DNA of 64,000 nucleotides from Dehalococcoidia bacterium (GTDB taxonomy: Bacteria > Chloroflexota > Dehalococcoidia > GIF9 > AB-539-J10). Under the pieces are notes generated by a model. That model saw only the letters and a list, made by a program, of their open reading frames with translations, did no database searches and had not been told where the DNA came from. Of this stretch, positions 729-39,015 are shown piece after piece (position 1 is the stretch's first letter; every line of letters starts with the position of its first letter). A program made the position numbers and the translations under genes. The stretch is taken from contig PWUU01000048.1 in NCBI GenBank assembly GCA_003562475.1, forward strand, positions 1-64,000, read 5' to 3'.

Positions 729-885
729 CTAACAAACTAAACACTTTCCGCCCCACTATTAGCTGCTGCCACCTTGTTGCTTGCTGTCAATAAATAACGG
801 CTGCAAAAGCACTTAGTTTGTTTAGCTCCTGGCAGGAATGGTCGTTGACGACTAATGGGGGATTGGTTAGACTGGATACAGGAAA
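729..885 (+). repeat. Palindrome-plus-tail repeat, copy A
   Basis: Bases 729-826 form an imperfect inverted repeat with arms of about 35 bases (left arm CTAACAAACTAAACACTTT, right arm ending GCACTTAGTTTGTTTAGC) around a loop. Thirteen bases later comes the tail GGTCGTTGACGACTAATGG, which continues with recognisable similarity to the copies at 1747 and 38977. The spacing between palindrome and tail is the same 13-14 bases in all four full copies of the window. The element is more AT-rich than its surroundings. Confidence 0.75.
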
Positions 886-946
886 GCTTAGTCGGCGGTG
901 GCCTGTAACAGAAGGTAAAGGCCCCGTCTTCAGTGGATGAGGTTCA

Positions 947-1285
947 GTGAGCTGGTTTCGAAGACACCTGAATTGGACATGGATATTGGCCTTTCTTATC
1001 TGGCTACCTTTGAATGCCGCGCATGGTCTTGCAGTTCCGCTAATCGGTGCCGTCTTCGTTCTGTTTGTCGCAGGGTGGGTTATCAGACAGAAAGGCCGAA
1101 GCCTATGGTGGCTGCTTCTCACGCCGCTGTTTTCGCCGGTGTGGCTGGGCAATATCAAGAGAGGATTGACGCCACAACAAGTAGTAACCCCGCTGGATAC
1201 TCCAGGATACTTCTACGAATACGGAAACCCTGCGAGAAGAGCGAGAGCAGGTGAGAAGCTTCCTACCCAAGATCCTGACGATTAG
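947..1285 (+). CDS. Small predicted membrane protein, unknown
   Basis: The 112-residue product has two or three hydrophobic segments (about residues 9-45, and a Trp-rich segment near 53-68), followed by a polar tail rich in Pro, Arg and Asp. No family was recognised. The start is a GTG with only a weak purine-rich site ahead of it. It is the first gene after palindrome copy A and runs in the same direction as all other small genes of this stretch. An internal start or no expression at all remains possible. Confidence 0.5.
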   Translation: MSWFRRHLNWTWILAFLIWLPLNAAHGLAVPLIGAVFVLFVAGWVIRQKGRSLWWLLLTPLFSPVWLGNIKRGLTPQQVVTPLDTPGYFYEYGNPARRARAGEKLPTQDPDD

Positions 1286-1373
1286 AAGCATCAGGAACAA
1301 TAGGGTAAACCTGCACTTGAGTTGTTTGCAGTTGATTAAAAGCGGGCTCTATACGGCAATAGGGGATGACGAT

Positions 1374-1724
1374 ATGTCTTCTGGCAAAGGGATGCTGGAT
1401 GGAGGCGGTGTTCCGGTTTCGGGACGTGGAGTTGCAGGCAGCTTTGTCAGGTACCGTAACTTCGTTGGCTTGCGTCGTCTTCTTGAAGAAGGAATATGCT
1501 CAAGAGATGACGTCTTAGAGGCTCTGCGTGCTGGTATTGAGCGCGAGCAGGCTGACCCAGATAGCTCCCACAACATGGAGGCTGATGTCTTCACCCAACA
1601 GCATATGGACCTACGGAGCTGGGCAAATGAGTATGTGTGCAAACAACTGCTGGGCATGTCTTATAGGGAGGTTGCCGGAAGAGCATATGACGGACAAACG
1701 AGGTCATGGTTCGAACGTGAGTGA
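1374..1724 (+). CDS. Hypothetical protein, 116 aa
   Basis: The ATG at 1374 is preferred over the ORF-track start at 1251 because it has a GGGGA site upstream and avoids the overlap with the previous gene. The product begins with a Gly-rich segment, then has a mostly helical, charged body containing the phrase NFVGLRRLLEEGI. No domain was recognised. It lies 90 bases after the membrane protein and ends 22 bases before a solo copy of the GATCGTTGACGAC tail. A short hairpin (TACCC...GGGTA) sits between stop and tail. Confidence 0.5.
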   Translation: MSSGKGMLDGGGVPVSGRGVAGSFVRYRNFVGLRRLLEEGICSRDDVLEALRAGIEREQADPDSSHNMEADVFTQQHMDLRSWANEYVCKQLLGMSYREVAGRAYDGQTRSWFERE

Positions 1725-1746
1725 TACCCTTATCGGGGTATGCCTT

Positions 1747-1792
1747 GATCGTTGACGACTAGTGGGGGGTTGGCGAGAATGGAGACAGAGAG
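1747..1792 (+). repeat. Solo copy of the GATCGTTGACGAC tail
   Basis: The tail motif and about 30 following bases (GACTAGTGGGGGGTTGG and beyond) match the tails of palindrome copies A and D, but the 100-base palindrome is absent here. Only a small TACCC/GGGTA hairpin precedes it. Confidence 0.6.
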
Positions 1793-2273
1793 CGACTTCA
1801 GTAAGTAGCAAATTCACTGACCACCATGAGTCGCTGGGGGCTCTATAACTCGTACAAGCATCAAAGACTTGGGAAGGCCAGCCGCCATGAAGTCTCGTCT
1901 CGGAGTCGTCTTGTGTATAGTGCCTGAGTTCGACAGTTCGCCGGGATTGGACACAAGAACAGCTTCAAGATTAGGGGGTTGCGGAGAAGGCGTGTTTCTA
2001 TGAAGTCGGTTGAGTGACGGGCGTGGTTTCAATGAGGTGGAAGAAGGAAGGCTCAGAAACACCTAACTCTGACAGGTTCTTAGGGGAAAGTACGATCGAG
2101 GGGGACTACACTCGGCGTTAGATTGCCTGTCAACTTCGAGACGCTGGATCCGGGGTCAGCTGGAACCAGAGAGACTGCATAATGCTCCCAACCCTGTCCA
2201 TCCAACTCTAGGTGTGGCGCAATGCCAAGATCGCGGAGTGTGCGTTGGACAATTGGAATGAGGAGAAAATGAG
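1793..2273 (+). other. Gene-poor stretch with a possible transposase scrap
   Basis: No convincing gene fills these 480 bases. A 33-codon frame at 1826-1927 reads LYNSYKHQRLGKASRHEV, which loosely resembles the Y-N-x-x-R-x-H-x-x-L-G C-terminal signature of IS3/IS481 integrase-type transposases. The similarity is too short to call an element. The remainder shows no promoter or hairpin that I can support. Confidence 0.3.
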
Positions 2274-2846
2274 ATGAGCAAGAGAAGGCTATCAGTATCT
2301 GCTGAACGTACCATCTACACTTATTCTTACCTTCACAGCGCGGCACTCCAAGGCATTGAACAAGCAGAGAACAGTGAAGAAGGTGCATTCTACAACTGTA
2401 TGAGTTCAGTAGTTCTTTCGGCGTTTTGCATTGAGGCGTATCTTAACCATGTTGCTTGTAGGTTGCTGCCCTATTGGGATGACGAGGTAGAGAGAACTCT
2501 GAACGTACACAGCAAACTGAAGATCATAAGTGATCGAGTAGATGTCGAATTGGACTTCTCAAGACGACCTTTTCAGTCATTCAATGAAGTGATGAAGTTC
2601 CGAAATCTCTTGGCGCATGGCAAGACTACGACAATTGAGAAGCGAGATAATCAAAGAATGTGGGATGGAAAGCGTATTAGCTACCCGGATGCTTGGTGGG
2701 AGGAACATAGTACACTCGAGTTTGCTAAACGATGGCGTCATGATATTGAGGCAATAATTGAGAAGATCCATCAATCTGCGGGTCTAGGGACCTCTGCCTT
2801 TGGAATACACTCGATCGGCACCGCAAGTGGCCGGCTAAGCGAATGA
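2274..2846 (+). CDS. HEPN-like protein (possible RNase toxin or defence protein)
   Basis: The 190-residue protein is predicted to be mostly helical. Residues near 110-120 read FRNLLAHGK, which contains the R-N-x-x-x-H arrangement (R-x4-H) diagnostic of HEPN domains; in active members this motif cuts RNA. An earlier helix pair (AFCIEAYLNHV) fits the first half of the fold. The start ATG follows a GGAGAAAATGAG stretch. The gene stands alone between repeat copies without an adjacent nucleotidyltransferase antitoxin, so a toxin-antitoxin pair is not evident. The family call rests on the motif and fold pattern only. Confidence 0.55.
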   Translation: MSKRRLSVSAERTIYTYSYLHSAALQGIEQAENSEEGAFYNCMSSVVLSAFCIEAYLNHVACRLLPYWDDEVERTLNVHSKLKIISDRVDVELDFSRRPFQSFNEVMKFRNLLAHGKTTTIEKRDNQRMWDGKRISYPDAWWEEHSTLEFAKRWRHDIEAIIEKIHQSAGLGTSAFGIHSIGTASGRLSE

Positions 2847-2912
2847 CTATCTGGTGCCAATGACGAGACCTTACTACTTCCATTGCGATCGTCCCATTCC
2901 TGGGATCAACCA

Positions 2913-3045
2913 GCTAAACACTTTAAGCACTTTCTAACCATTATTAACCCAAAACATGCTTCCACTTCAGCTATATGCTAATAATGCTCCTCAAAATGCT
3001 TAGTTTGCTTAGCAGCTGCCAAGGGGTGATCGTTGAGTTGCACCC
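2913..3045 (+). repeat. Palindrome-plus-tail repeat, copy B
   Basis: The 101-base inverted repeat at 2913-3013 (left GCTAAACACTTTAAGCACTTT, right AATGCTTAGTTTGCTTAGC read outward) begins 66 bases after the HEPN-like stop codon. The tail GATCGTTGAG follows 14 bases after the right arm and then diverges from the other copies. Confidence 0.75.
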
Positions 3046-3172
3046 TGTTCAGAATTGCTGAATCTGGATCTGCTTAGGGTTGTTGTTAGCACTAGCTGAC
3101 CCGGAGTGACCGTGCTGTAAGATTATGCTGTTGACATTCCAGGGGTATGGCTAGGCATGAGGGAGGTACAGA

Positions 3173-3613
3173 ATGAATACAGACACCGATGCGAAGGAGA
3201 AACTGGAGGGACTTCTTAGGAGACTGACATCGTCGGGTCACACAGTAAGGGAAGTCAGCAAGAAGCCCCAGGTCTATTCGATCGATGGCCATCTTGTGAA
3301 CATCCGTAGCAGGGGAAAGCTCCGAAGAGCTGCGGAGGGGGACAGACAATTCTGGTACAGCGTCGCTTTCAGCGTGCTCGAGAAGGTGCAGTGGGTGATC
3401 TTCATGACAACTGAAGCAGACTACTTCGTGATGCTGCCGAGTGATTTGCTTGATAGCCTCAAAGACCGCATGTATCCTGACCGGAGCGCCGAAGGCCTCA
3501 AAGGTGTGTTTGACATAGATTGGGATCAGTTGGAGATCGTGTTGAGGGGAGGTGAGCGGGTATCAATCAATGATTACTATCAGAATCTCGACGAATTTAG
3601 TTTCCCTGCATGA
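3173..3613 (+). CDS. Hypothetical protein, 146 aa
   Basis: A GGGAGG site lies seven bases before the ATG, so translation is likely. The protein mixes a charged N-terminus with a beta-rich core (QFWYSVAFSVLEKVQWVIFM) and an acidic C-terminal part. No domain was recognised with confidence; the alternation of strands and a central helix could fit a small nuclease-like or binding fold, but no catalytic set is visible. It lies between palindrome copy B and a strong terminator. Confidence 0.6.
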   Translation: MNTDTDAKEKLEGLLRRLTSSGHTVREVSKKPQVYSIDGHLVNIRSRGKLRRAAEGDRQFWYSVAFSVLEKVQWVIFMTTEADYFVMLPSDLLDSLKDRMYPDRSAEGLKGVFDIDWDQLEIVLRGGERVSINDYYQNLDEFSFPA

Positions 3614-3762
3614 GTGCTTCGGTATTGCTGAGGTTTGTCACCCATACGTTGCCAGTCTAACCCCTTTACCCTGTCACCCAGGTATTGACACCCCTGTGCA
3701 CACACGCCAAAATGAACACAACTGCTTGGTGCGAATCCGCAGCATTGAGCAGCGTCACCACA

Positions 3763-3810
3763 GCGAGAGAGGACAAAGGGGAGCCGTCCTCTCTCGCGTT
3801 TTGTTTTGTC
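3763..3810 (+). terminator. Rho-independent terminator
   Basis: A perfect 12-base stem, GCGAGAGAGGAC pairing with GTCCTCTCTCGC, closes an 11-base loop and is followed at once by GTTTTGTTTTG. It lies 150 bases after the 146-residue gene and would end plus-strand transcription. Confidence 0.85.
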
Positions 3811-3837
3811 AGAAGATCAGAGGGGTGCAATTCAGAC

Positions 3838-3905
3838 TGGTTCTGGTTTCAGGAGGAAGGGCACATTGATACCGGCATGCGGACATTCTCGCTGAACAGT
3901 TAGGG
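3838..3905 (+). repeat. Solo insertion-sequence-like end, copy 1
   Basis: The block ends in GACATTCTCGCTGAACAGTT, which recurs exactly in inverted orientation near 37.97 kb as part of a 28-base identity. Weaker similarity extends back to a shared CTGGTTCYGG. The form resembles a transposon terminal repeat, but no transposase lies beside either copy. Confidence 0.55.
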
Positions 3906-4098
3906 AAGAACAGTATCGTAGACCATCTACAGGGGTTCTGGACAGGCTTGACGATTGGATGCGCTGACCATACCATAACGGTACCAAGGCCCAAGAGGGG
4001 CATGTCGGCCTTCTACGGGCTGATATGGGGAATCTCGGCTAAGACTGTTGTCGATAGTCTTTCGAGGTGGAGAATAGGCCACATATGAGGCGGTTCAA

Positions 4099-5262
4099 AT
4101 GGTTGCCCGTGAATACCGCTACTATGTGACGCTCAAGGTGGCTCGCGATGCAACGCCTGAACAGATCAAGGCCGCCTTCCGCAGACGTGCCAAAGAATGC
4201 CATCCTGATACCAATCCCGGCAACCCAGAGGCTGAGGCCAGATTCAGGGAGTTGAGCAAAGCCTATCAGGTTCTATCCGACCCACTTGAGCGTGCTCAAT
4301 ACGACCGTTCGGAGGCTGAGTGTCCTAAGTGTGGGACATACAAACTACTAGATGTAGGCAAGAGTACGTGGGAGTGTCGTCTCTGCGGATGCCAGTTTCA
4401 CGCACGAGGCCTCATCAAGAACGAACTTGTCTTAATAGCTGGCAAGAACCAAGGGCTGGATGCCAAGTTCTTTGAAGGGTTCCAAGCCACACGGTGCTCG
4501 TGGTGCGTGCGCTTCTACAGTCGTCCACGATCGTGTCCTCACGATGGTCTACGCAATCAATGCGTTAGCTTTCACCGCATGTCTGGTACCGAACGCACGA
4601 AGGAACTTCTGAATGATTATTGGCGGACACGTGCCATTGAGTACACACAGAAGGAGAACAGCAGCCGAAGGCTGCGACAGTGTGCGGATACCGACAAGTG
4701 TGGAGCATTGTGTCCTTCCAGTGCATTGGACCGTAGTCGCTGTTCACTATGTGGCAACCCCCTGAACTGGAAATGCCCCAACTGTGGTGCTGATCTTCTG
4801 TATTTTGACTTGAGTGTTGAGGCATTGCGATGCCCCAACAATCAATGCTCAGGACACAGGTGGCGTTTCGAGGCAGGCTCTGGTATTCGTACTGCTAGTA
4901 AGTCGCCCCGTACGGCCAGTAGTTCGAGCAAAGCGGCTGCTGGTGGTAGAACTCATACAAGTTACAAGAGCGATGCCAAGAGACCAAGGCAGCGACCGTC
5001 TTGCCTCAATTGTGGCAACGAGCTAGTTTTCAGCACTAATAGAAACCTATGGTCCTGTCCCCACTGCCGACACTACTATACGAAAGCCCAGGTGAAGATG
5101 CAGCCTGGAGATGTCGGTAGTTCGACGCAGCAAGACGCACCGCAGAACAGTAGACAGAATCACGCTGGAGGTCGTCGCTTACAGAAAGGGCTTATCATTA
5201 CCATAATCTGTGTATTGCTGTTGATAGCTGTGTTATTGCTGATCGAAACAATCAAGAGCTGA
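4099..5262 (+). CDS. J-domain protein with four zinc-ribbon segments and a C-terminal membrane anchor
   Basis: Residues 4-70 form a J domain with the HPD tripeptide (CHPDTNPG), the signal that stimulates Hsp70 ATPase. It is followed by cysteine pairs in zinc-ribbon spacing: CPKC/CRLC near 76-98, CSWC near 135, CSLC/CPNC near 215-230 and CLNC/CPHC near 305-325. Between them lies a Ser/Arg-rich linker. The last 25 residues (LIITIICVLLLIAVLLLIE) are a single membrane segment, so the protein is probably tail-anchored with the J domain in the cytoplasm. It has no DnaJ substrate-binding domains and is not the housekeeping dnaJ. Palindrome copy C begins 79 bases after its stop. Confidence 0.8.
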   Translation: MVAREYRYYVTLKVARDATPEQIKAAFRRRAKECHPDTNPGNPEAEARFRELSKAYQVLSDPLERAQYDRSEAECPKCGTYKLLDVGKSTWECRLCGCQFHARGLIKNELVLIAGKNQGLDAKFFEGFQATRCSWCVRFYSRPRSCPHDGLRNQCVSFHRMSGTERTKELLNDYWRTRAIEYTQKENSSRRLRQCADTDKCGALCPSSALDRSRCSLCGNPLNWKCPNCGADLLYFDLSVEALRCPNNQCSGHRWRFEAGSGIRTASKSPRTASSSSKAAAGGRTHTSYKSDAKRPRQRPSCLNCGNELVFSTNRNLWSCPHCRHYYTKAQVKMQPGDVGSSTQQDAPQNSRQNHAGGRRLQKGLIITIICVLLLIAVLLLIETIKS

Positions 5263-5341
5263 TTCTCCTTTGAGATCCCTCTGGTATCAGTCTCAACATG
5301 ACATGGCACCTTGACAAACGCCAAACGTCTCTCGGGCATGA

Positions 5342-5470
5342 ACTAAGCAAACTAAACGCTTTCTGGCCATTATTAACCTAGGATTTCAACTGCACGCTTG
5401 CAAGCTAATAATAATGGCTGAAAAGTACTTAATGTGTTTAGTAGCTACGAGACAGCGATCGACGTCTTAG
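5342..5470 (+). repeat. Palindrome-plus-tail repeat, copy C
   Basis: This copy has the cleanest palindrome: left arm ACTAAGCAAACTAAACGCTT, then GGCCATTATTA, mirrored by TAATAATGGCTG and an arm ending TTTAGT at 5442. The tail GATCGACGTC starts 14 bases later and is more diverged than in copies A and D. Confidence 0.75.
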
Positions 5471-5905
5471 CTAACTTGTCAGTCAACTCGTCTGTTGTTG
5501 ATCATTTGCTGTTATCTGCACACTCTTGAAAAGGCTTTAATTCGAATCAAATCTTACACATTTGACAATCTGAACATCTGAAAGCAGAAGAGCACTGCTT
5601 ATGAATTAAGAATACTGGCTGGCGGTTCGTGATCGTCATGCCATGGAGGGGCATGCCAGGATGTCTTAGACTCGCCCAGGCATTCACGAGACCAGTCAGG
5701 CTAATCCTCTCCCCGCACTCTGTTTGGCAACACTTGTGGCAAGGCAAATACAACCACGTGGTTTCAAACGTGAAAACAAGCAACTCTCAGAAAGTAATTC
5801 CTTGGGTCGCATATCACACAATACATTTACGCTGCAATTGACGACGCACTACTGTGCTTACTTATGACCCAGCAAAGCTGACATCACGAGACAGGAGGTC
5901 GTCAG
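5471..5905 (+). other. Intergenic stretch, no gene seen
   Basis: These 435 bases are relatively AT-rich and hold only short antiparallel open frames that I judge to be chance. A good ribosome site (AGGAGG) for the next gene lies at its right end. Confidence 0.5.
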
Positions 5906-6400
5906 ATGAGCAAGAAGTCCCGATTGAAGCAGGTAGAGGCACCACCTGCTGAGTCCCCACCTGAAGAGCTCACACCTGAAGAGCCAACGCCCGAGATTCC
6001 ACAGGAACCTGAAGCTCCACCTGCTGAACTCACACCTGAAGAGCAGGTCGAGACACCTGAGAGCCCACAGGAGCCTGAAGCTCCACCTGCTGAGCCAACA
6101 CCTGAAGAAGCACCTGAATACACCCAGGTGACTATCGCAGACATCTGGTCCATCCTCGGCACCGGATTGAGCTACCAGGTCAGAAGGCAGATCATCGAGC
6201 TGCTGGTCTCGCAGGTGAAGCTCACCACAATAGGTGAAGGTAGCCGCAGAACGATGGACGCCGAAGTGACGTTCGCAATTGACCCGGACGCAGTATGTCT
6301 TAGCTACACGGACACGCTTGCGGCTACGCCTACGTCTATCCGGCCACCAACCTGCACTACCCGCACGGCTATGCCATCGCCATCACCTTCCCGTACGTGA
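5906..6400 (+). CDS. Pro/Glu-repeat ORF joined to a recombinase-like tail, probably chimeric
   Basis: Translation should start well, because AGGAGG lies seven bases before the ATG. Residues 10-75 are tandem Pro/Glu-rich repeats around PEAPPAEPTPEE. Residues 80-125 (RRQIIELLVSQVKLTTIGEG, then AEVTF) resemble the segment near the C-terminus of large serine recombinases, which reads I-x-E-L-V-x-x-I and ends in a strand. After about base 6290 the frame becomes low-complexity Pro/Thr/Ser, because it overlaps an alcohol dehydrogenase remnant in another frame. I regard the first 125 residues as a degraded gene and the end as artefact. Confidence 0.4.
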   Translation: MSKKSRLKQVEAPPAESPPEELTPEEPTPEIPQEPEAPPAELTPEEQVETPESPQEPEAPPAEPTPEEAPEYTQVTIADIWSILGTGLSYQVRRQIIELLVSQVKLTTIGEGSRRTMDAEVTFAIDPDAVCLSYTDTLAATPTSIRPPTCTTRTAMPSPSPSRT

Positions 6401-6714
6401 CGGAGTACAACGCGCTGGCGCAGTTCGAGAAGCATGCCATGATCGCCGATGTTCTCGGTGAGGAGATAGAGGGACTGTCACTCCGCGATGCCGCATACCT
6501 CGCGCCTGTGGCGTTCAAGAAGCTGATGGAGGACCTTGAACTCCCCCTCTCTCTGCAGGAGGTCGGCGTCACCGAAGACATGATTCCGATAATCGCCCGC
6601 AACGTGCTGAAGAGCCCCAATCACTGCCGCCGCAACCCGCGAGAGGTCACCGAGGACGGGATGCTGGAGTTGTTCGCACGCGCTTACGAAGGCGCACTTG
6701 CCTGGGAGATCTAG
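6303..6714 (+). pseudogene. Iron-containing alcohol dehydrogenase, C-terminal remnant
   Basis: Starting just after an in-frame TAG, the frame reads LHYPHGYAIAITFPYVTEYN and continues to a stop at 6714. This is the metal-binding histidine region and helical C-terminal domain of group III Fe-dependent alcohol dehydrogenases, including the late SLQEVGV segment. About 130 of the usual 380-400 residues remain, and the NAD-binding N-terminal domain is absent. The join with the Pro/Glu ORF upstream looks like a deletion or insertion scar. Confidence 0.75.
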
Positions 6715-6728
6715 ACGGGGCAATCTGC

Positions 6729-6767
6729 AGAGCCACGGCCCGGACGGTCAGGCCGGGCCGCGGCTCT
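6729..6767. terminator. Bidirectional terminator hairpin
   Basis: A long GC-rich stem, AGAGCCACGGCCCGG pairing with CCGGGCCGCGGCTCT, is followed on the plus strand by TGTTGTCCTT. It lies between the convergent alcohol dehydrogenase remnant and the 3' end of the mazG-like gene, whose last codons it overlaps. Confidence 0.65.
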
Positions 6768-7170
6768 TGTTGTCCTTCGACTGCCCACGCAGCTCTGTGT
6801 ACTTGCGGTAGTTTCCCTTGACGAGGGCGGCGGGGTATTTCATGCGGTTCTTCGTCAGTTTGCGGCTGACCGTCTCCGCCACATCCAGGCCGGCCACCGA
6901 GGCGAGGTTCAGGCAGAGGAGGATGATATCTGCCAGTTCCTCGGCCAGTCGACAGCGTTTCTCATCGTCCTTCAGGAGCGAGGATATCTCATGTTCCCTG
7001 ACCCATTCGAACAGCTCCAGCAGTTCTCCCGCTTCGACATTTATCGCGATGGCGACATCTTTCGCGTTGTGATACTTCCCCCAGTCGCGTTCGTCGATGA
7101 ACTCCTGCACCAGGCGCTTGAGGTCGCCCGTGGTAGTGGTATCGTCCGACAGTGGTTGAATATCCGCCAT
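6748..7170 (-). CDS. MazG-like nucleotide pyrophosphohydrolase
   Basis: The 140-residue product fits the single-domain all-alpha NTP pyrophosphatases that hydrolyse non-canonical or excess (d)NTPs to NMP. The metal-binding acidic motif is visible as EAGELLELFEW followed by AEELADIILLCLNL, giving E-x-x-E and E-x-x-D pairs. The ATG at 7170 is chosen because GGGAGG lies seven bases upstream and because the longer ORF-track start would run into dnaE2. It is the last gene of the minus-strand SOS operon, 83 bases after dnaE2, which suggests dNTP pool cleaning during error-prone synthesis. That link is an inference from position. Confidence 0.85.
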   Translation of the reverse strand: MADIQPLSDDTTTTGDLKRLVQEFIDERDWGKYHNAKDVAIAINVEAGELLELFEWVREHEISSLLKDDEKRCRLAEELADIILLCLNLASVAGLDVAETVSRKLTKNRMKYPAALVKGNYRKYTELRGQSKDNKSRGPA

Positions 7171-7253
7171 CTGGAAACCTCCCTTCTCCGGAGTGGCACT
7201 CGCCGCGATAAGGGCCACGGTGTCCTTCACACTAGAACGAATCACTGGCGCTG

Positions 7254-10385: not shown

Positions 10386-10416
10386 AAGGCACTCACACGG
10401 TTCGGAGTGAACCTTG

Positions 10417-14371: not shown

Positions 14372-15604
14372 TCAATGATGCGGCATGTTCAGCTTGTAAA
14401 CAGTCTCGAATGAGTTGAACAGGTCGAGGTACTGCTCCAGGTAGCGGCTCAGCAGGAACTTCTCTCGGACCGTCTCCTTGGCCTTAACACCGACATCTCG
14501 ACACATCTCAGGGTCCTTGAGCAGCGCTACTATCCTTGCCGCCGCCTCTTCAACAGACGACACGAGGAATCCGTTCACCCCGTCCTCTATCTGCAGCCGG
14601 ATTCCTCCCACGTTGCCGCCGATGACCGGGGTGCCCTTCCACATCGCCTCTGACACGGTCAGACCGAATCCCTCGCGCAAGGATTTCTGCAGTACCACCG
14701 CCGCTTTGCGCTGCAGTGCGTTGACGAGCGCACCATCCTGCTGGCTCATGATGAATATCTCGTCCGATTGCTGGCTCAGCAGCGACTCGTACACCTCAGG
14801 CCCCTCCGGGTCATCCGTAGCGACATTACCCAGCAACACCAGCCGGCATGGCACTTCCTGCCGCGCGATATTGAAAGCTTCAATAACGCCCTCAGGGTCC
14901 TTCCATCGATCGAACCGTGATATCTGCACCACGAGCGGCAGGTCCATCGGTATGCCGTAATGGGATATCCGCTCTTCACACTCGGCATCGCTCATCTCGT
15001 AGTTCACTATCGAGAACGGATCGATGGCTGGCATAAAGAACACCTGCGGTGTCTCGAGCTCTTGCGCGTACATCCTGCTGCTCAGGATGACGGCATCGTA
15101 GCGTTCAATGTACTGCGTCAGGTACGACCACAGCTCCCTGTGCGGCTCTTCAAGGTCGATATGGCAGCGCCATACCCAAGGTCCATCTTTGCGGTAGTGC
15201 GTGATCATTGGCAGCGGCTGCGGGTCATGCACAATGACAATATCGTGCGCCAGGTGGTTGAGAATGGCGTTCTGATGTACGACCGCCTCGTAGATCTCCT
15301 GCTTTCTCTTGCTCCAGTTGATAGTGCCGCTCTGGAGCGCATTGTGCATCTTCTTGGTCACGCTGAAGAAGTCAGGGGACCCGTGAATCGTACGCCAGCC
15401 TGTCTTGATACCGAGGCTGTTCATGAGGATGGTCAGCGAGCCCAGCAGCTGCGATACGCCGCCGCCGTAGTACGTCGAATTGATGTTGGCGATGTGAAGA
15501 TACTGGGCCGCTTTGGCCTTCTCCTTTATCCGGTCGACTGCCTCAGTTCCAATGTGCTGCTGATAATCATCGATGGTAAACAGGCCGTGATGGCGGTCCG
15601 TCAT
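14372..15604 (-). CDS. GT4 glycosyltransferase, TreT-like (trehalose synthase family)
   Basis: The 410-residue protein matches GT4 enzymes of the TreT type, which make trehalose from NDP-glucose and glucose. The N-terminal domain has STYYGGGVSQLLGSL and a conserved HDPQPLP segment. The C-terminal Rossmann domain has the E-x7-E nucleotide-sugar motif in REGFGLTVSEAMWKGTPVIGG. AAGGAGG lies before the ATG. It is 23 bases downstream of galT in a two-gene operon, so NDP-sugar supply and use are probably linked. Substrate is inferred from family resemblance. Confidence 0.8.
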   Translation of the reverse strand: MTDRHHGLFTIDDYQQHIGTEAVDRIKEKAKAAQYLHIANINSTYYGGGVSQLLGSLTILMNSLGIKTGWRTIHGSPDFFSVTKKMHNALQSGTINWSKRKQEIYEAVVHQNAILNHLAHDIVIVHDPQPLPMITHYRKDGPWVWRCHIDLEEPHRELWSYLTQYIERYDAVILSSRMYAQELETPQVFFMPAIDPFSIVNYEMSDAECEERISHYGIPMDLPLVVQISRFDRWKDPEGVIEAFNIARQEVPCRLVLLGNVATDDPEGPEVYESLLSQQSDEIFIMSQQDGALVNALQRKAAVVLQKSLREGFGLTVSEAMWKGTPVIGGNVGGIRLQIEDGVNGFLVSSVEEAAARIVALLKDPEMCRDVGVKAKETVREKFLLSRYLEQYLDLFNSFETVYKLNMPHH

Positions 15605-15627
15605 GCTTCCTCCTTAACGTGTACCTG

Positions 15628-16635
15628 TTATTCGGCCGACACCACTCCTCTCATGAATTGTGCCGTGTCCTCAGGAACACTTGTATTGATGTGGACGCCG
15701 GAACCTATCTCAAACCCGGCCACTGCCGTGAGCCGGGGGTAGATGCGCAGGTGCCAGCAGAAGTGAGGTTCGTTTTCATCTCCCAGGGCTGCAGTATACA
15801 GTACGTGATTGAAGTCGGGGTCGTTGAGCCCCACAAACAGGCCGTGAAGCGCGTCGCGCAAGGCGCAACCAAACTGCCGCAGTTCATCATCCACCACCTC
15901 GGCGAATGACGCGCGCGGGCTCTTCGGCACTATCCAGGTCTCAAATGGACGTCGCGATGCGTACGGGTGCATCTCCACGAACGAGCAAGTTTCGCGAACT
16001 ACACGCACCCCCCGCTCGAGTTCAAACTCGACCATTTCCATGTAGAGGTTCCGGCCACGCTCATCGTAGTGCTGCACCGCCACATCGTACTGGTGCCGCC
16101 GGTGGCGTGGCACTACCGGCGAGGCGACGATTTGCGAGTGCGGGTGCTCGAGCGACGTACCGGCAGACGGACCGTGGTTCTTGAAAATGATGACCTGTCT
16201 CACATAGTCGTGGGTGTACATATCGCGAAGGCGGTCGCGATAGGCCCTCACGACGTCGAAGACCTCATCGTCCTCCATCTGGGCGAGGAGTCGATTGTGC
16301 AGGGCGGACTCAACCAGCACCTCATGAATGCCCACACCTTTCACGCTGAGTGCGAGCGGATGGTCCTGAAACCTGTCTGCCGTCCCATCAGGACGAACCG
16401 CAGGGAACTTGTTCTCGAACGCCCTCACACGCCACAAGCCGGTGACAGGGTCGAGATACGAAGCAGTCTCACCGGTGGTCTGTGCCTCGTTGCCCGGACA
16501 GAAGGGACAGTCTGCCACATGCGCTTCCGAAGGCGGGTGCGGCGCGCGGGAAACGAGGTCACGCGGGCGTTTAGCCCGCTCGGTGGCTATGATGACCCAC
16601 TCCCGCGTCGTAGGGTCAAGTCGCAACTCCGACAT
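15628..16635 (-). CDS. galT: Galactose-1-phosphate uridylyltransferase family protein
   Basis: The HIT-superfamily enzyme moves a nucleotidyl group between hexose phosphates through a uridylyl-histidine. The catalytic HPH is in SLEHPHSQI, and zinc ligands start at CPFCPGNE. The second domain has the conserved HLRIYPR. The start MSELRLDP is chosen over a Met seven codons earlier because it is the family start. Pairing with a TreT-like transferase raises the possibility that it handles glucose-1-phosphate; some bacterial GalT-like proteins are NDP-glucose phosphorylases. At 335 residues it is a normal length. Confidence 0.85.
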   Translation of the reverse strand: MSELRLDPTTREWVIIATERAKRPRDLVSRAPHPPSEAHVADCPFCPGNEAQTTGETASYLDPVTGLWRVRAFENKFPAVRPDGTADRFQDHPLALSVKGVGIHEVLVESALHNRLLAQMEDDEVFDVVRAYRDRLRDMYTHDYVRQVIIFKNHGPSAGTSLEHPHSQIVASPVVPRHRRHQYDVAVQHYDERGRNLYMEMVEFELERGVRVVRETCSFVEMHPYASRRPFETWIVPKSPRASFAEVVDDELRQFGCALRDALHGLFVGLNDPDFNHVLYTAALGDENEPHFCWHLRIYPRLTAVAGFEIGSGVHINTSVPEDTAQFMRGVVSAE

Positions 16636-28087: not shown

Positions 28088-28128
28088 AGAGAGGGAAAGC
28101 CCCCACAAAGGGCTCTCCCTCTTGTTCT
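28088..28128 (+). terminator. Rho-independent terminator of the RRM gene
   Basis: AGAGAGGGAAAGCCC pairs with GGGCTCTCCCTCT across a short loop, followed by TGTTCTGT. It lies 73 bases after the RRM stop. Confidence 0.8.
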
Positions 28129-29440: not shown

Positions 29441-29476
29441 GGTCTGATTCACTCCAGTTCAACAGGGGTTCACGTC

Positions 29477-31243: not shown

Positions 31244-31299
31244 GGTGGGGCTCTGGTGTCCTTGGGGCTCCCTTCGATACTATCAGACTCACAGGGTCG

Positions 31300-31545
31300 T
31301 TATCCAGGCGACTTGGGTTGTACACTGCGGCTGGCGTACAAGCAGCCCAACGCCTTCTTCCACGCAGTCACCAGGTTCGGATGGACCTCAAACCGGCTGG
31401 CCAGCTGCGCCACCGTCTCTTCTCCCTTGAGCGCTTCCATGGCGCGACCCTGGCCTTGAATGCCGGGCTGTGCTTCCTCCGGTTCCGTTTCACGTCCTGC
31501 TCCTTCCATAGCTCCCTCTGTCTTAGGAGCAGAATGACATCATGA
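31300..31545 (-). pseudogene. IS3-family OrfA remnant, frameshifted
   Basis: On the minus strand, a start region reading [16 protein letters not shown] shifts frame into [29 protein letters not shown]. Together they are the helix-turn-helix of IS3-family OrfA. A one-base deletion (or two-base insertion) separates the halves, and OrfB is absent. It is not the same subgroup as the element at the left edge of the window. Confidence 0.75.
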
Positions 31546-31615
31546 AGAGAGCCATACTACTGCTACCCGGGGTGGCTCAGAAACCGAACGGCGTTCCGTC
31601 CGTTGCCCCCACATA

Positions 31616-32044
31616 TCAGGCAGTTTTCTCCTTGACCGCGCCTTCAAGCTTCAGCCAGGCCTTGACGACGCCGTCGATGATGGCCTCTGGACGGGGAGGA
31701 CATCCGTGGACGTACACGTCAACCGGGATTATCTGGTCGATCGGTCCGACCAGGTTGTAGGACTCCTGGAACACACCGCCCTCGGCTCCGCAGTTGCCGA
31801 TGACTATCACGACTTTGGGGTCGGGTGTCTGGGCATAGATACGCCTCATCCTCGGCTCCATTTGACGTGTCACCGGGCCGGTCACCAGCAGGACGTCTGC
31901 GTGTCTCGGAGAGCCGACTAGTTTGATGCCGAATCGCTCGAGGTCGTACCGGGGAGTGAGCGCGGCGACAATCTCGATGTCACACCCGTTGCACGAACCC
32001 GTGTTGAGGTGATACACCCAGAGCGCCAGCTTGAATGAATCCAT
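31616..32044 (-). CDS. NuoB-like [4Fe-4S] subunit (group 4 hydrogenase / complex I small subunit)
   Basis: The 142-residue protein carries the N2-cluster ligands: SCNGCDIEIV, then GNCGAEGG and VHGCPPRPEAI. It is close to the small subunits of energy-converting hydrogenases and related formate or ferredoxin complexes (HyfI/EchC type) as well as NuoB. It should sit on the cytoplasmic side of a membrane complex. The rest of the complex is missing, except for a truncated antiporter-like tail just upstream, so it is probably an orphan and may be non-functional. The frame itself is intact. Confidence 0.8.
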   Translation of the reverse strand: MDSFKLALWVYHLNTGSCNGCDIEIVAALTPRYDLERFGIKLVGSPRHADVLLVTGPVTRQMEPRMRRIYAQTPDPKVVIVIGNCGAEGGVFQESYNLVGPIDQIIPVDVYVHGCPPRPEAIIDGVVKAWLKLEGAVKEKTA

Positions 32045-32067
32045 GCCGATATGTGTTGTTCCCCCCT

Positions 32068-32235
32068 CTAGTCCAGGCCCGCCACGAACACCGCAATGCC
32101 TGCCACTGCGGTCAGAGCCAGAAGCCAGATAAGATAGTCGTTCACAATACCCGTATGGGCATGCACAGTGGGCTCATAGTAGCGCTTCATCGCGTCGAAG
32201 AAGCCCCAGTACATGTTGTGTGCGCGAATGGGTCC
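32068..32235 (-). pseudogene. NuoL/HyfB-like antiporter subunit, C-terminal 55 codons
   Basis: The frame GPIRAHNMYWGFFDAMKRYY, then HAHTGIVNDYLIWLL, ends 23 bases before the NuoB-like start on the same strand. It resembles the extreme C-terminus of large proton-pumping subunits of complex I-like enzymes. A TGA interrupts the frame at 32236, seven bases from the stop of the GH15 gene. The rest of the operon has been deleted or displaced, and the join abuts a carbohydrate gene. Confidence 0.65.
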
Positions 32236-32242
32236 TCAATCA

Positions 32243-34255
32243 TCAGTGAGCGGACCATGGAACATCTTGCCTGCGGTGTAGCTGTGCTTGGAGTTCATGG
32301 TACTTGTCAATGTATTCGTGAATCGCTATCACCACGGCGGCATGGCTCCAGGTCAGTGGTGATACACTGAGCGGGGTATGGCTGTGCGGGTCAACCTGCT
32401 CGGCGAGAACACCACTAGGGAGAGCACAGTGCTGAGCCCAGGTGAGAGCCTGGAGGGCTGGCTTTAGGTCGCCCAGTGATTGAGCTCTGGCGATATGGTA
32501 TTGAGCTACCCACATGGTGCAAATGAACCAGGGATTACCGGGGATATTAGTGATGTCCTGACTAACTTGCTGATAGCGGTCGTTCTCATAGCGGGCGACG
32601 CCTCCCACCGTGGATTTGCACCAAAGCCGGTCTATAAGGGCCGCCATCGTGTTCTCAATAAGGGGGTCAGCAACCTCGAACATACCGACAACAAAAGGGC
32701 CGCAAATACTGCTATCGATGGTGTAGTCTGGTTCCACCACACCGTCAGCGCTAACCGTGATCGAGCGCAAGAAGCGTCCCAATTTCTTATCAAAGAGGTA
32801 CTTAATAGCAGCCTCTTTTATCTCAGCCGCCGCCTGACGGTACTGCTTCGTGAGTGTCATCTCGCCGAATACTTCCGTGAAGTTGGCCGCCGCTTGTAGG
32901 CCTGCCCAGACCGCAGCAACCGTAAAAGAGTGGATGCCACGGCGTTCCTCCCAAAGGTCATATGAAGGTGCTGGAAGGTTGGTATGAGGCTCTCTATAGC
33001 TAGCCATAAAGTCGGCAGCGTTCATAATCAGTGTTCGATAAAGGGAACGGATGAACTCTACATTGCGGAACTTGTTGTAGTGATACCAAAGGCTGTGTAT
33101 GACTAGAGCAGTCTCATCTTCTTCAATTGGCAGTTGCGGCTTGCCCTCCTCGTCTGCCCACGGCATCCACTGGCCTGCCAGAGAACCATCGGAGTTATAC
33201 TTGTGAAGGAGGTAGCCTTCACTAGTGATGGTATTGGCGCAAAACCCGAAGAACGCGTGACTGATTTCGTTATAGTTGGCCATGTCGAGGGCTTTAGCTA
33301 CGAAGGCCCCATCACGACCCCACACATAAGAATAGGTGTCCCCCAAGACCTCGGTAATGTCGGAGTCAGTGCCGGCGATGATAGCACCACGGTTATCGAT
33401 CTGCACGCGCATAGTGAGCAAGCTGCGTCGGTACAAGCTGAGTATGGACGCCGGCAGGTCGGCACAGTCCAGCGATTCCTTGTTCACCCACGCTCGCCAG
33501 TAATCACGGGTACGGATGATGAATGACTCAGGTCCGCGTTCACGAATCAGAGTCTCGAGTTCCTCGATTCCGTGGAAGCGGGTGCTTGCCGCCAGCCAGT
33601 GGTACATGGTTGAGCTTCCTCCAGCGGGCACAGTCTTGTCATAGAGCCCGATGACTCCCTCAGCAAACCCACAAGTAAGAGGCACCTTCGCCAATTGGCC
33701 ATCTTCGGCATCGCGCCATGCACTTTTTCTATCTCCTGATCTTGTGCTTCCGGTTGTCCAGTCGTCGAGGCCAATTATTCCATTTACTTGGGCACCGGCC
33801 AGGAAGTAACGCTGCTCCTTGTACATCACCAAGGCTCTCAGTCTTGGGTGGTAGTAGATAGTATCGCCTATTGCCCTGCCTAGAATCCGCAGCGCGTAAT
33901 GGAAGAACAGGCGTACGTCGCGGGGGTGGTCTCGGTGATTGGCGATATTGACCCGCCTGAAGAGGATGTCCCGGTGAAAGTCCACGAGGTCAGAAAAGAT
34001 GAGGGTGAGTCCTATCTCACGATTAGTCGCCGTAACACGGGTGACCAAGCTCTCACTTTCATAGACCATTTCCCTCTGCCACTGGGGACTGTCAATCCAG
34101 GTGAAGTTGCCATCAACCCAGACGCCAGTACGTGATACACAACCTTCGGTATGGTTCTCCTTACCTACATAAGGATAGTAGATGTCCCGGAGGTTGTAGT
34201 TGGTGTCAAAATTGACGTGCAGGTTGCCATTGCCTACAGGTACGTCTCTAGGCAT
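32243..34255 (-). CDS. Glycoside hydrolase family 15 (glucoamylase-like)
   Basis: The 670-residue protein has an N-terminal beta-sandwich domain (residues 1-260) and an (alpha/alpha)6 barrel. The general acid region reads YDLWEERRGIHSFTVAAVW and the base region GVLAEQVDP, followed by SVSPLTWSHA. Family members release glucose from starch, glucan or trehalose-like substrates. No signal peptide is seen, so it is probably intracellular. It lies 56 bases downstream of a GT4 transferase in a two-gene operon. Its 3' end abuts a hydrogenase-operon remnant. Confidence 0.9.
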   Translation of the reverse strand: MPRDVPVGNGNLHVNFDTNYNLRDIYYPYVGKENHTEGCVSRTGVWVDGNFTWIDSPQWQREMVYESESLVTRVTATNREIGLTLIFSDLVDFHRDILFRRVNIANHRDHPRDVRLFFHYALRILGRAIGDTIYYHPRLRALVMYKEQRYFLAGAQVNGIIGLDDWTTGSTRSGDRKSAWRDAEDGQLAKVPLTCGFAEGVIGLYDKTVPAGGSSTMYHWLAASTRFHGIEELETLIRERGPESFIIRTRDYWRAWVNKESLDCADLPASILSLYRRSLLTMRVQIDNRGAIIAGTDSDITEVLGDTYSYVWGRDGAFVAKALDMANYNEISHAFFGFCANTITSEGYLLHKYNSDGSLAGQWMPWADEEGKPQLPIEEDETALVIHSLWYHYNKFRNVEFIRSLYRTLIMNAADFMASYREPHTNLPAPSYDLWEERRGIHSFTVAAVWAGLQAAANFTEVFGEMTLTKQYRQAAAEIKEAAIKYLFDKKLGRFLRSITVSADGVVEPDYTIDSSICGPFVVGMFEVADPLIENTMAALIDRLWCKSTVGGVARYENDRYQQVSQDITNIPGNPWFICTMWVAQYHIARAQSLGDLKPALQALTWAQHCALPSGVLAEQVDPHSHTPLSVSPLTWSHAAVVIAIHEYIDKYHELQAQLHRRQDVPWSAH

Positions 34256-34311
34256 CTTAGTTTTGGATTATTCTCCTCTTTGGGTATATACACTATTATG
34301 GGCCTCCAGGA

Positions 34312-35562
34312 TTATCTGAGATGCTCGATCGTGTGACAGTCTCTCGGCGGTCTCTCGGGCATGTCCAGCCGTAGCCTTTGTAAGTCCGGCCCATACAATA
34401 CAGTATTATAGACCTCCAAAGTTTTCTGAGCTGCCTGATCCCATGAGTGTTCTTCTGCAGTTTCCCTGGCACGCTCACCTATCGTCTTTCTGAGTGCAGC
34501 ATTTGAAAGCAGCAACTCGATTTTTGCTGCCAGGTCGTTGACATCGGAGGAGGCTCTAAGTAGGAGGCCATTTACCCCATCGATAATGATATCAGCAGCT
34601 CCGGCAACTCTGCTGGTGATTACAGGCAAGCCGCTGGCCATAGCCTCGACGATGACTAGGCCAAAGGGCTCATACATAGTGGGAAAAACGAATATATCGC
34701 TAGCAGCATAGTATTCCCAAAGACTGCTGCTGTGGGGGACAAAGATTATCCTCTCCCTCACCCCCCTTAGCTCCGCAAGCTGGCCGTAGAATTTCTCGTC
34801 TCCGCTACCAATAATGATGAGTGTTACGGTTCTGTTCGAAAGCAGTGGAAGTGCTTCTACAATATACCGAACTCCCTTCCTTTCCCAATCGCCTCCAGCA
34901 AACATCAGTAATGGATCACTACGGGATACACCATGCTTTTGCCTGATCTGGTCCCTATAGAGTGGCCGATTAGTCGGGTGGAATCTGAGAGTATCTACTC
35001 CATTAGGGATTACGATGATGTTTTTGGCGGCATCACCGTAATGACGGGCGAACTCTTCTTGCATAGCCTGAGAAACTATAATGCACGCTCTAGAGTTGCT
35101 GCGGCTAATTATCAGCCCCTCAAGAAAGCATACCAGGCAGCGATACAGCCTGTGGTCCCATGCTTTCAGTTTTTGCCAGACACTCCTGCAAGGTATCTCA
35201 ATTATGTTAGCCTCTTCGAGACGGCGACACTCCCTCTCACAGAAATGAGAGGTGATAACGTTTGAAGAAAAGGCGGAGTCATACCCTGTCGAATGGATGA
35301 TGTCAAAGTCTGTTTTTCTAAGAAAAGAAAGAACAGCAAGGAGTACGGTACTGGATATCAAGAAGGTAATGTGTGCCAAAGGCTTGGGACATCTGAGTGC
35401 TGGCACCTTATAGTGCTGAACTTTGAGTAAGTCAATCCCATCTATGGTATTAGAACAAACCGAAACCTGATGGTCCCCGGAAAGCCTCTCGACCAGGTGA
35501 GCGGTGACCGTTGCTGGCCCCGTTTTGAAGTTAACATGATGCGCAACGAAAGCGATCTTCAA
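34312..35562 (-). CDS. GT4 glycosyltransferase
   Basis: The family start LKIAFVAHHVNFKTGPATV is encoded from a TTG at 35562; an ATG start at 35697 would add 45 non-homologous residues and cannot be excluded. The C-terminal domain has FAGGDWERKGVRYIVEALPL and the E-x7-E motif in EPFGLVIVEAMASGLPVI. At about 416 residues it is normal for the family, which transfers sugars from NDP- or phospho-sugar donors. Pairing with a glucoamylase suggests glucan or glycoside synthesis; donor and acceptor are unknown. Confidence 0.85.
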   Translation of the reverse strand: MKIAFVAHHVNFKTGPATVTAHLVERLSGDHQVSVCSNTIDGIDLLKVQHYKVPALRCPKPLAHITFLISSTVLLAVLSFLRKTDFDIIHSTGYDSAFSSNVITSHFCERECRRLEEANIIEIPCRSVWQKLKAWDHRLYRCLVCFLEGLIISRSNSRACIIVSQAMQEEFARHYGDAAKNIIVIPNGVDTLRFHPTNRPLYRDQIRQKHGVSRSDPLLMFAGGDWERKGVRYIVEALPLLSNRTVTLIIIGSGDEKFYGQLAELRGVRERIIFVPHSSSLWEYYAASDIFVFPTMYEPFGLVIVEAMASGLPVITSRVAGAADIIIDGVNGLLLRASSDVNDLAAKIELLLSNAALRKTIGERARETAEEHSWDQAAQKTLEVYNTVLYGPDLQRLRLDMPERPPRDCHTIEHLR

Positions 35563-36226
35563 GCCGACATACGGAAGCTGCCTTCGGCGAGACTTCCGGC
35601 ATCTCCAACTGTTCCCTTTGAGGTATTCATCGCAATCTTGTCCACGAATGTGTTTAACGATCACCTCCTTAGAACTTCCACTCGGCAAATCCTCCAAGAT
35701 ACTCGGGTTCTCACTCCTATGATTATGCTCCTTCTGCCAGTTATGGGGCCTCTTACTTCAGAGCCCTTGTGACCTTCCCCGTTTTGGGCTGAGGAGCCTT
35801 ACACTCTAGACACAGGTTTGCTTGGGGAACCGGTTCTAGCCGGTGAATGAAAGAGAGTCGTGACAGTGCCCGTCGAGGCGCACACAGTAGAGGGTATTGT
35901 GCCCGCCACAACCAGCGTAAGGGCATCTCCAGAGAACCAATGTCCCAGCCACCTGCCACAAACCACATTTACCCCCCCGAGGATGATCCTCGCCCAAAAG
36001 CCCTCAGAGTTCCCAACCTGATGAATGACAATGCAACAAAGTGAGGGGAATCAGTCACACACAAAGCAACCAGTGGATCTCCCGAGCGCATCACGCCGAA
36101 ATACCACCTAAGAAGGAGCAAACCTAATCTAGCACCTTCCCAGAGGAAAGGCAAAACCCGTATAAGAGGTAGCTCAAGCTCTGCGGCGGTTATCCAGTCG
36201 ACCACTGTATGCCGCTGCGGCTCTTA
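35563..36226. other. Intergenic stretch with a duplicated 50 bp segment
   Basis: No gene is convincing here. Bases 36108-36157 match 37876-37926 near the rpoD promoter region (CAGAGGAAAGGCAAA and flanks). On the minus strand both copies are open and translate to a shared P-F-L-W-x-G-A-x-L pattern, which may be chance preservation. Confidence 0.4.
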
Positions 36227-37687
36227 CTACAGGTAGTCCTTGAGCTTTCGGCTGATGCTCGGGTGCCGCAGCTTGCGGAGTGCCTTGGCCTCTATCTGGC
36301 GTATACGCTCACGGGTCAGGCTAAACTCCTGTCCCACTTCCTCGAGAGTACGTGCGTGTCCGTCCTTGAGTCCGAAACGGAGTTGAAGCACTTTCTTCTC
36401 CCTGGGTGTGAGTTCGTCGAGGACTCTGTCGATCTGTTCCTTCAGTAGTTCCTGGGTGGCCACTTCGGATGGCGCAGGACTTGTCTGGTCCTCAATGAAG
36501 TCCCCCAAGCATGTGTCGCCATCCTCGCCGACGGGTAATTCCAGGGAGATGGGTTGCTGGTGGAACAGGGTCATAACCTTTTCAACGCGATCAGGAGTCA
36601 TGTTGAGTCGGAGCCCGATCTCTTCAGAACTCGGTTCTCGTTTGAGCTCGTAGCTCAACTGGCGTGTGGTGCGCATGAGCCGGTTCATCATCTCGACCAT
36701 GTGCACGGGAATACGAATCGTGCGTGCCTGATCGCCAATTGACCTGGTGATTCCCTGCCGAATCCACCATGTCGCGTACGTGCTGAACTTGTACCCTTTC
36801 CGGTGACGGAACTTCTGTACCGCGCGCATCAAACCGATGTTGCCTTCCTGGAAAAGGTCAAGGAGGGGCATGCCATAGAAGGTGTATTTCTTGGCGATGC
36901 TCACCACAAGACGCAGATTTGCTCGTGTGAGGTGGGTTTCCGCATCCTCAGCCGCCCGATTCACTTCATCGTAGTGCTGGCGCAACTCGTCTTCGTAGGG
37001 CTCCAGTAGCGTTGTTAGCCTCCCGTCTGCTATCTGTTCACGCAATTCGTCGAGAGACTCAGTCGACAACAATCCTATGGCATGTGGGGGCAGTAGATTG
37101 CTGTTCACGGACATACTCACGATTGTTTTCTGCGCTGCGGGAGTCACCTGGTTGGTCCCATCTGCGATGGCGGCGATGAGTTCTGGCTTGATCCTGTTGT
37201 TGATGGCCACGCGGAGTCCGTCGACGCACAGAAGCTGCCCCACACTGAGCCCGTCTTCGATATCGAGTTCCTGTCTGATGACCTCGAGCACTGGATAAGC
37301 CCTCACAATGTGTCCGAGGAGATCCACGGTCAGCTCAACTGCGGTAGGCTGTGTCCGGTACTTCCTGAAGTGCACCTCTTCAAGCCAGGCGAGGTGGCGC
37401 CCGCGCTCTATCTTGCTGGAGAGAACTCGCTCCTCCGCAGACTTCAGCAGGGGCACCTGCCCTATTTCACGCAGGTACATGCCGACAGAATTATCGATGG
37501 CCTCGTCAGCGAACAGACCTAATGGCGCCTTCACCTCGTCCGCGACAAGCGCGAGTCCAGGTTCGTCAGGGCCTTCACTCTTGGATCGGGTATCCGCCTC
37601 GTTGGACTCCTCGTCGTATCCGTCGTGTGCCACAGTGGGCGACTCATCCTGAATGTCCGATGAACCAGTGTCTCGAATGATATCCAT
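36227..37687 (-). CDS. rpoD: Primary-type sigma factor RpoD/SigA
   Basis: The 486-residue protein has region 1.2 ([17 protein letters not shown], near 66), region 2 with the -10-melting segment [20 protein letters not shown], region 3 and region 4.2 with [21 protein letters not shown] non-conserved insert of about 110 residues lies between 1.2 and 2.1. The acidic N-terminus is consistent with a short region 1.1. This is the housekeeping type or a close paralogue, and recognises TTGACA/TATAAT promoters such as those of the lexA operon and the 43.6 kb cluster. It appears monocistronic. Confidence 0.95.
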
Positions 37688-37875
37688 GTGTTAGCCTCTG
37701 CCCTCGGCCTTGCCATCCGCCACGAACTGCGCTTGCCCTTTGCCTGAAGACGCTTCCGGCTGAAGCAAGCTTTCGAGCTTCCCACGCCGAGAAATGACCA
37801 TCCACGAAAGCGAACGGGCATCAGTCAACTGGAACGTCACCACCGGGACTCGCAGCAGAGCCCGCCGCGACGCTA

Positions 37876-37926
37876 TGAGAAGGACGAACAAGGCTAGGTT
37901 AGCACCATTCCAGAGGAAAGGCAAAG
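37876..37926. repeat. Second copy of a ~50 bp segment, upstream of rpoD
   Basis: The segment matches 36108-36157 (shared TAGCACC, CAGAGGAAAGGCAAA), with about 37 of 50 identities by eye. It lies about 190 bases upstream of the rpoD start, so it could carry a control site, but the first copy has no gene in that relation. Confidence 0.5.
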
Positions 37927-37965
37927 CTACGAATTGCCTCCGTTGATGTTCTGCGATTTAGTCCT

Positions 37966-38045
37966 CCGTTAACTGTTCAGCGAGAATGTCCGCATGCAGG
38001 AGATGCTGACATTTCGCATCCGGAACCAGGTGGGCACAGTTTCGT
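37966..38045 (-). repeat. Solo insertion-sequence-like end, copy 2 (inverted)
   Basis: Read on the minus strand this has GACATTCTCGCTGAACAGTT in the same 28-base identity as the copy at 3838-3905, with weaker similarity reaching a CTGGTTCCGG. The two copies are about 34 kb apart in opposite orientation, without a transposase. Confidence 0.55.
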
Positions 38046-38250
38046 GTGACTGACCACCAATCTGCAGCCGATCAACATTCACCCCTCAATTCCCCAGCCT
38101 TGTTGGCATTTTTTACGGTAAGAAGGATTCAACCGTGCAGTTACGAATGCAGATGATCAAGGCGCACGCGGGCAAGGCGTTGACCATGATCATTGGCGCA
38201 TGACACTGCCGCTTGTGGTACAGTGACGTTGACATCACGGAGGGGGGGTC

Positions 38251-38796
38251 GTGGCAATCATCATTCGCACTCTCTACAACAACCAGAAGTGGACAGCTCC
38301 ATGCGCCAGGCCAGACAGTGACCCTCTGTGTTGGCGATGCATGAGGCAGCCTAGTGTCAAAGTCGACCGGCCAAGCCCCGGAGTCATCTTGTGCGATGGC
38401 CATTGCTGGGAACAGTCTCTCTGCACCTTCTACGAGTGGGGATGTACGCCACAGGGCCGTATCTGGAGCCCACGGGCGCATATTGATGATCGGGTGTTCT
38501 TCGTGTACCAGCTACCTCCAACTGGCTCCCGGCTGTCGTACGCCATCTGGGGGTGTACACACGTGGTCAGGATCGACAGGTTTATGCGCCAGAGAAATGT
38601 CGACCATTGGGATGCCTACGCGTACTCGTTCCTAGTAGTGGAGCCGTTCACACCGATACCGCTGTTCAGTCGACCTTCGAACCTGTCGGCTGACGAGCTT
38701 GTCGGCAAACCCTGGGGTTCTGGAGCCTATCAATTTATCGATGACGACCGTGAAGAAAGATTGCTGAGCCTCATTCCTGAGGAGTACCGCGCCTGA
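38251..38796 (+). CDS. Hypothetical protein, 181 aa
   Basis: A GGAGGGGGGG stretch precedes the GTG start, so translation is likely. The protein has several Cys and Trp residues in its first half (CWRCMRQPS near 30, CDGHCWEQSLC near 50) and a beta-rich middle (RVFFVYQLPP). No domain was recognised; the cysteine pairs could bind zinc. Like the genes at 2274 and 4099, it is plus-strand and ends 65 bases before a palindrome repeat. Confidence 0.6.
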   Translation: MAIIIRTLYNNQKWTAPCARPDSDPLCWRCMRQPSVKVDRPSPGVILCDGHCWEQSLCTFYEWGCTPQGRIWSPRAHIDDRVFFVYQLPPTGSRLSYAIWGCTHVVRIDRFMRQRNVDHWDAYAYSFLVVEPFTPIPLFSRPSNLSADELVGKPWGSGAYQFIDDDREERLLSLIPEEYRA

Positions 38797-38861
38797 CCAA
38801 GCGTCGATCAGGAGCATCAGTACCAAGAGAGAGAATCATTCGCGGTGTAGGCCGGGTGCCA

Positions 38862-39015
38862 ACTAAACACTTTAAATACTTTGTGGCCATTAATTAGTGC
38901 TATCTAGAAGCACCATTATGCTCAATACATAATAATGGCTGCAAAGCACTTAGTGTGCCTAGCTTGCGGCAGGCATGATCGTTGACGACCAATGAGGAGT
39001 TGGCCGGGCTGGATG
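38862..39015 (+). repeat. Palindrome-plus-tail repeat, copy D
   Basis: The 102-base palindrome at 38862-38963 (left ACTAAACACTTTAAATACTT, centre-facing GGCCATTA and TAATAATGGC, right ending GTGCCTAGC) is followed 13 bases later by GATCGTTGACGACCAATG. It is a close match to copy A across the tail. An IS256 transposase remnant begins about 60 bases after the tail. Confidence 0.75.

Follow-up and report, generated by a model that had tools for sequence, protein, structure and literature searches.

Intergenic palindromes in a Dehalococcoidia genome: probable relics of a small MITE-like element family

Palindromes and tails in the window

The window analyzed here comprises bases 1–64,000 of the 116-kb contig C57 in a Dehalococcoidia MAG (Chloroflexota; 2.46 Mb, 133 contigs, 95% complete), designated G000. 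It contains four imperfect palindromes on the plus strand: E1 at 724–829 (73.5 bits and E = 4.5e-14 with our covariance model R1), E2 at 2910–3016 (80.3 bits), E3 at 5339–5445 (107.7 bits), and E4 at 38859–38966 (89.2 bits). E1 consists of two imperfect inverted arms of ~37 nt around a loop of ~33 nt, and its orientation was chosen by the higher model score on the plus strand. These palindromes had been pointed out in a sequence-only reading of the window and were recovered by R1 at E = 1e-14 to 1e-22 (~73–108 bits), scores that are partly given by construction as the model was trained on eight copies including E1–E4. Independent support for a family was provided by a plain blastn match between E1 and E4 (E = 2e-13), and by copies from congeneric genomes, none of which entered R1. 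The AT-richness described earlier was confirmed, with 36–44% G+C in the palindromes versus 57.5% in the window. Folded as single-stranded DNA, E1 (z = -0.8) and E2 (z = -0.1) were no better than shuffled sequences, and E3 (z = -2.0) and E4 (z = -2.6) were better.

E2, E3, and E4 start 63–77 bases past the stop codons of plus-strand ORFs, as had been noticed in the first reading, and the nearest convincing stop codon to E1 is 283 bases away. Among the genes concerned, the one at 4099–5262 indeed carries a DnaJ domain and zinc-ribbon-like stretches (Pfam), and the 181-aa ORF described as of unknown function has no Pfam match. For the gene at 2274–2846, called HEPN-like, a HEPN match exists but lies below threshold (E = 0.05, Pfam).

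The palindromes had also been described as followed by a common tail. This tail is real after E1, E2, and E4, where its core TGATCGTTGACGA is matched at 12/13, 10/13, and 13/13 positions, but not after E3, where 7/13 matches correspond to chance level and a different tail resembles that of the copy in congener G001. The type-1 tail of E1 (839–881, plus strand) is 84% identical to a solo type-1 tail located at 1746–1788 on the same strand, without palindrome, which the earlier reading had placed at 1747 and which does lie 22 bases past the stop at 1724. The core after E2 is degenerate (TGATCGTTGAGTT, 3027–3039, plus strand; as good a match in 0/1000 shuffles), and the type-1 tail of E4 (38976–39018, plus strand) is 72% identical to 839–881. 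A promoter scan detected TTGACG-17-TAGACT at 845–873 inside the E1 tail and TTGACG-17-GAGAAT at 1752–1780 inside the solo tail; in the E4 tail, the second hexamer is lost. With the copy on contig C104, which also has a tail, the pattern TTGACG-17/18-TAGACT/GAGAAT is present in three type-1 tails (E1, solo, C104), which may be promoters judging from this consensus match. Right flanks were divided into four groups: T1 (E1, E4, C104, and the solo tail), T2 (C57e, C99, C28, C16, C51), T3 (G005), and T4 (E3 and G001). Genome-wide, the tail occurs at 4–5 places versus at least 8 palindrome copies. Thus, palindrome and tail do not form a fixed unit, and the tail is an optional, separate flanking module.

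Family size, distribution and gene context

The sequence-only reading had proposed to search the complete genome and its relatives with a covariance model, and this search revealed more copies, so that the family is real. Beyond the window, G000 holds 4 strong copies, and 4 or more that are weak or partial. Strong copies of this genome are carried by contigs C57 (five), C99, C104, and C16, and weak or partial ones by C49, C51, C41, C37 (two), C28, and C67; the C28 copy is truncated by deletion of its loop and the C67 copy by loss of its right arm. Copies were found in 3 of 6 congeners, with five in G005, where an insertion interrupts a sixth, one in G001, and one in G004. R1 detected no palindromes in G002, G003, and G006, and in 18 genomes from outside the genus its sole match, at E 0.82, is not credible. 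Copies of G000 are only ~65–80% identical to each other, and recent movement is therefore not indicated. A phage or plasmid origin was rejected, as the exact tail and arm patterns were absent from viral contigs, and blastn of E4 against phage records and plasmids returned nothing. The relatives of the RpoD-type sigma factor of G000 belong to Dehalococcoidia MAGs, the nearest being labeled CSSed, CSMAG, and B1Sed, which we take to designate soda-lake sediments; Dehalococcoidia MAGs are mentioned in soda-lake papers (PMC6146748, PMC6704655). A literature search for miniature inverted repeats in combination with Dehalococcoid turned up no paper combining both, and the family has apparently not been described before.

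Based on simple home-made gene calls, all 22 copies examined are intergenic, versus ~31% of positions drawn at random from these loci (~69% genic). For 17 copies both neighbors were called: 14 are located in tandem gaps, 2 in convergent gaps, and 1 in a divergent gap (1/17, null 26%). Within tandem gaps, 10/14 copies are closer to the stop (null 50%). This lean toward 3′ ends is mild (p about 0.04–0.09, our own binomial estimate), and several copies precede a gene or are inverted relative to it. One of the two proposals made earlier, a mobile palindrome preferring 3′ ends, is retained in its first part, as a MITE-like element fits best, but the 3′ preference is weak at the genome scale. The pattern in the window, with palindromes following plus-strand genes, would arise mostly because the genes of the island at 1–6300 are nearly all on the same strand.

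Arms, boundaries and shared blocks

Both arms of all copies follow one common consensus, about AACTAAGCACACTAAGYRCTTTCTGGCCATTATTA, and the whole element measures 99–110 bp in all model matches with a nearly constant arm-to-arm spacing. In G000, the likeness between the two arms of a copy is 7.9, versus 8.3 when arms are permuted between copies (p = 0.6), and covariation in the eight strong copies of this genome is at the shuffle mean. In congeners, the corresponding values are 9.2 and 6.2 (p = 0.016), and from this comparison some upkeep of arm pairing is possible. The arms are kept as sequence, each decaying independently, as expected of relic terminal inverted repeats.

These data bear on the idea that the palindrome is a host regulatory module, i.e., a large intergenic hairpin acting in transcription end or RNA stability, after which would come the promoter of the gene downstream. 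The slight preference for gene 3′ ends and the promoter-like hexamers of the type-1 tails (E1, solo, C104) agree with such a role, but it is sequence and not pairing which is conserved, the module is missing in three congeners, tails vary between copies, and no Rfam family is matched. We consider this explanation quite unlikely. A conserved RNA was also rejected, as Rfam gave nothing at gathering score and only chance sub-threshold matches at E 3.8–8.6.

The other proposal made earlier was a recombination site carried with each gene, comparable to integron attC, in which case each gene would travel with its 3′ palindrome and a site-specific recombinase would carry out exchanges there. An attC site is also an imperfect palindrome, of 57–141 bp, located downstream of genes of varied function (PMC3053210). 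Genes and palindromes alternate in the window island and in G005:C138, which is consistent with such cassettes, as are the edges of shared blocks that fall in or at the palindrome (C57e/C99; C37a/C37b). However, attC sites are recognized by their structure although their sequence is diverse (PMC3053210), whereas the present family shows the reverse, keeping sequence and not pairing. The core boxes RYYYAAC and GTTRRRY (GTTRRRY/RYYYAAC) stand at the feet of 1/19 copies, in agreement with the earlier remark that the canonical core is not conserved, arm covariation is lacking, and some copies precede genes, point the opposite way, or occupy a divergent gap. In G000, no integron integrase exceeds the cut-off (TIGR02249, best 56.6 bits versus 265). 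A convincing one (348 bits, cut-off 265) was detected in G002 (G002:C218:2832–3707), possibly on a contaminant contig, yet this genome has zero palindromes, so that integrase and palindromes are in different genomes; given incomplete assemblies and the contaminating contigs that G002 may hold, integrase absence is good but not absolute evidence. Integron attC was therefore rejected, core boxes, covariation, and integrase all being against, and the claim of a recombination site carried with each gene is not supported on the same points. Any attC-like cassette site appears very unlikely to us. Highly improbable, too, is an integron-like cassette system driven by an unknown recombinase, perhaps linked to the large serine recombinases of the islands, in which exchange would take place at the palindrome and blocks would be joined inside it, its two arms thereby stemming from different cassettes. 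Here, resemblance to attC at the end of uncharacterized genes does not imply gene cassettes, and a false lead is thus removed.

The boundaries of the element were examined by comparison of related loci. C53b, a DUF5679 paralogue without repeat, aligns with C37b up to CATCA, exactly at the arm start ACTAAG, a sharp foot seen on one side of this one locus only. C57e and C99 have ~390 bases in common to the right, 96% identical from the tail onward, and their palindromes are unlike. On either side of the DUF5679 genes of C37a and C37b stand outward-facing arms (3702-/3944+ and 6957-/7208+); loop, right arm, gene, and opposite arm are common to both (79% from loop to opposite arm), and this ~310-bp unit is duplicated, arms included. 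In both pairs, the right arm and flank are common while the left arm is not. In G005, two copies 90% alike define a unit of 237 bp with a palindrome at its center. More generally, similarity commonly extends beyond the palindrome on one side, tails reaching R+40–55. Shared blocks that start in or at palindromes can be produced by homologous recombination or by composite movement between repeats; that homology breaks inside palindromes remains an oddity. An orthologous empty site was sought downstream of the sigma factor and none was obtained: the contigs of relatives end there or carry no repeat, and the sigma gene close to C49 and G001:C19 turned out to be another paralogue, the second one.

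Alternatively, the arms could be the ends of larger cargo transposons, the 107-bp palindrome being two such ends meeting, or a remnant after loss of the cargo. The duplicated C37 units, with DUF5679 genes between outward-facing arms, would be explained in this way, and within tail groups the right arm and tail are better conserved than the left arm. Nevertheless, the spacing remains at 99–110 bp in all model matches, and no transposase-bearing element was found between such arms. DNA between two MITE copies can be mobilized (PMC10969869), and composite mobilization by two flanking copies fits the DUF5679 units equally well. We regard cargo transposons as an unlikely origin.

MITE-like origin and surrounding islands

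The palindromes are probably (we estimate about 0.6) relics of a small, old, genus-limited family of non-autonomous MITE-like elements. They are short elements with terminal inverted repeats and no ORF of their own, their copies are dispersed over several contigs of G000 with unrelated flanks, and the comparison of C53b with C37b indicates a discrete boundary on one side. Bacterial MITEs are likewise short, ORF-less, and multicopy, with terminal inverted repeats, intergenic locations, and truncated and nested copies (PMC10969869, PMC2229807). As an example of nesting, the loop of G005:C138:15396 (15360–15765) holds a ~165-bp insertion whose inverted ends of 12 bp, GAGCCTGTCGGA, match perfectly and which is accompanied by a CTAG duplication. 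In contrast with bacterial MITEs, the palindromes are strongly diverged, their subgroups have common flanking tails, and they show neither a detectable target duplication nor a known parent IS. The target-site score was 3.26 on average versus 3.25 by chance, in copies so old that duplications may have decayed. A search with the arm pattern in 7 genomes, all MAGs that are incomplete and in which IS copies are commonly lost during assembly, found no arms other than those of palindromes and solo remnants, and no parent transposase with matching inverted repeats. As target duplication and parent transposase were not found, the MITE membership is putative.

The ancestral element would have been ~107 bp long, with two terminal inverted repeats of ~37 nt around a variable loop of ~33 nt. 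It would once have been scattered by a transposase that acted on the arms in trans, after which the copies would have decayed, persisting between genes since insertions into genes would be removed. The tail is probably a promoter region duplicated along with some copies. REP/BIME-type palindromes are also intergenic, palindromic, and commonly located after genes, but the present arms are much longer and the copies few.

Two islands surround several of these palindromes. In the window, a large serine recombinase is represented by its C-terminal portion at 5906–6313 (43% over 106 aa when compared with the recombinase of G005), and 6309–6714 encodes the C-terminus of an Fe-alcohol dehydrogenase. 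Only this C-terminus is present here while the gene is full-length in G004:C164, which suggests that the island-like region 1–6308 was integrated into the dehydrogenase gene. The island of G005:C138 includes a large serine recombinase, a gene for an AriA/OLD-like ATPase (75 bits to AriA), and several palindrome copies. G000 and G004 have expanded sets of DUF5679 zinc-ribbon genes (6 and 5, respectively), with one in each of G002, G005, and G006; some of the extra copies are located close to IS remnants and palindromes.

The palindromes add a repeat family to a little-studied Dehalococcoidia genus rich in intergenic miniature repeats. Other short intergenic repeats are abundant in the genus; for example, a ~60-bp repeat located at 3872–3932 and 37937–38000 of the window has dozens of matches across it, and apparently belongs to a miniature element whose ends read GGGCACA. 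Also, the first 120 bases of the window (1–121) recur unchanged at the beginning of contigs C102 and C23, which corresponds to an assembly break at a repeat, and an isochorismatase gene without its N-terminal part adjoins this break.
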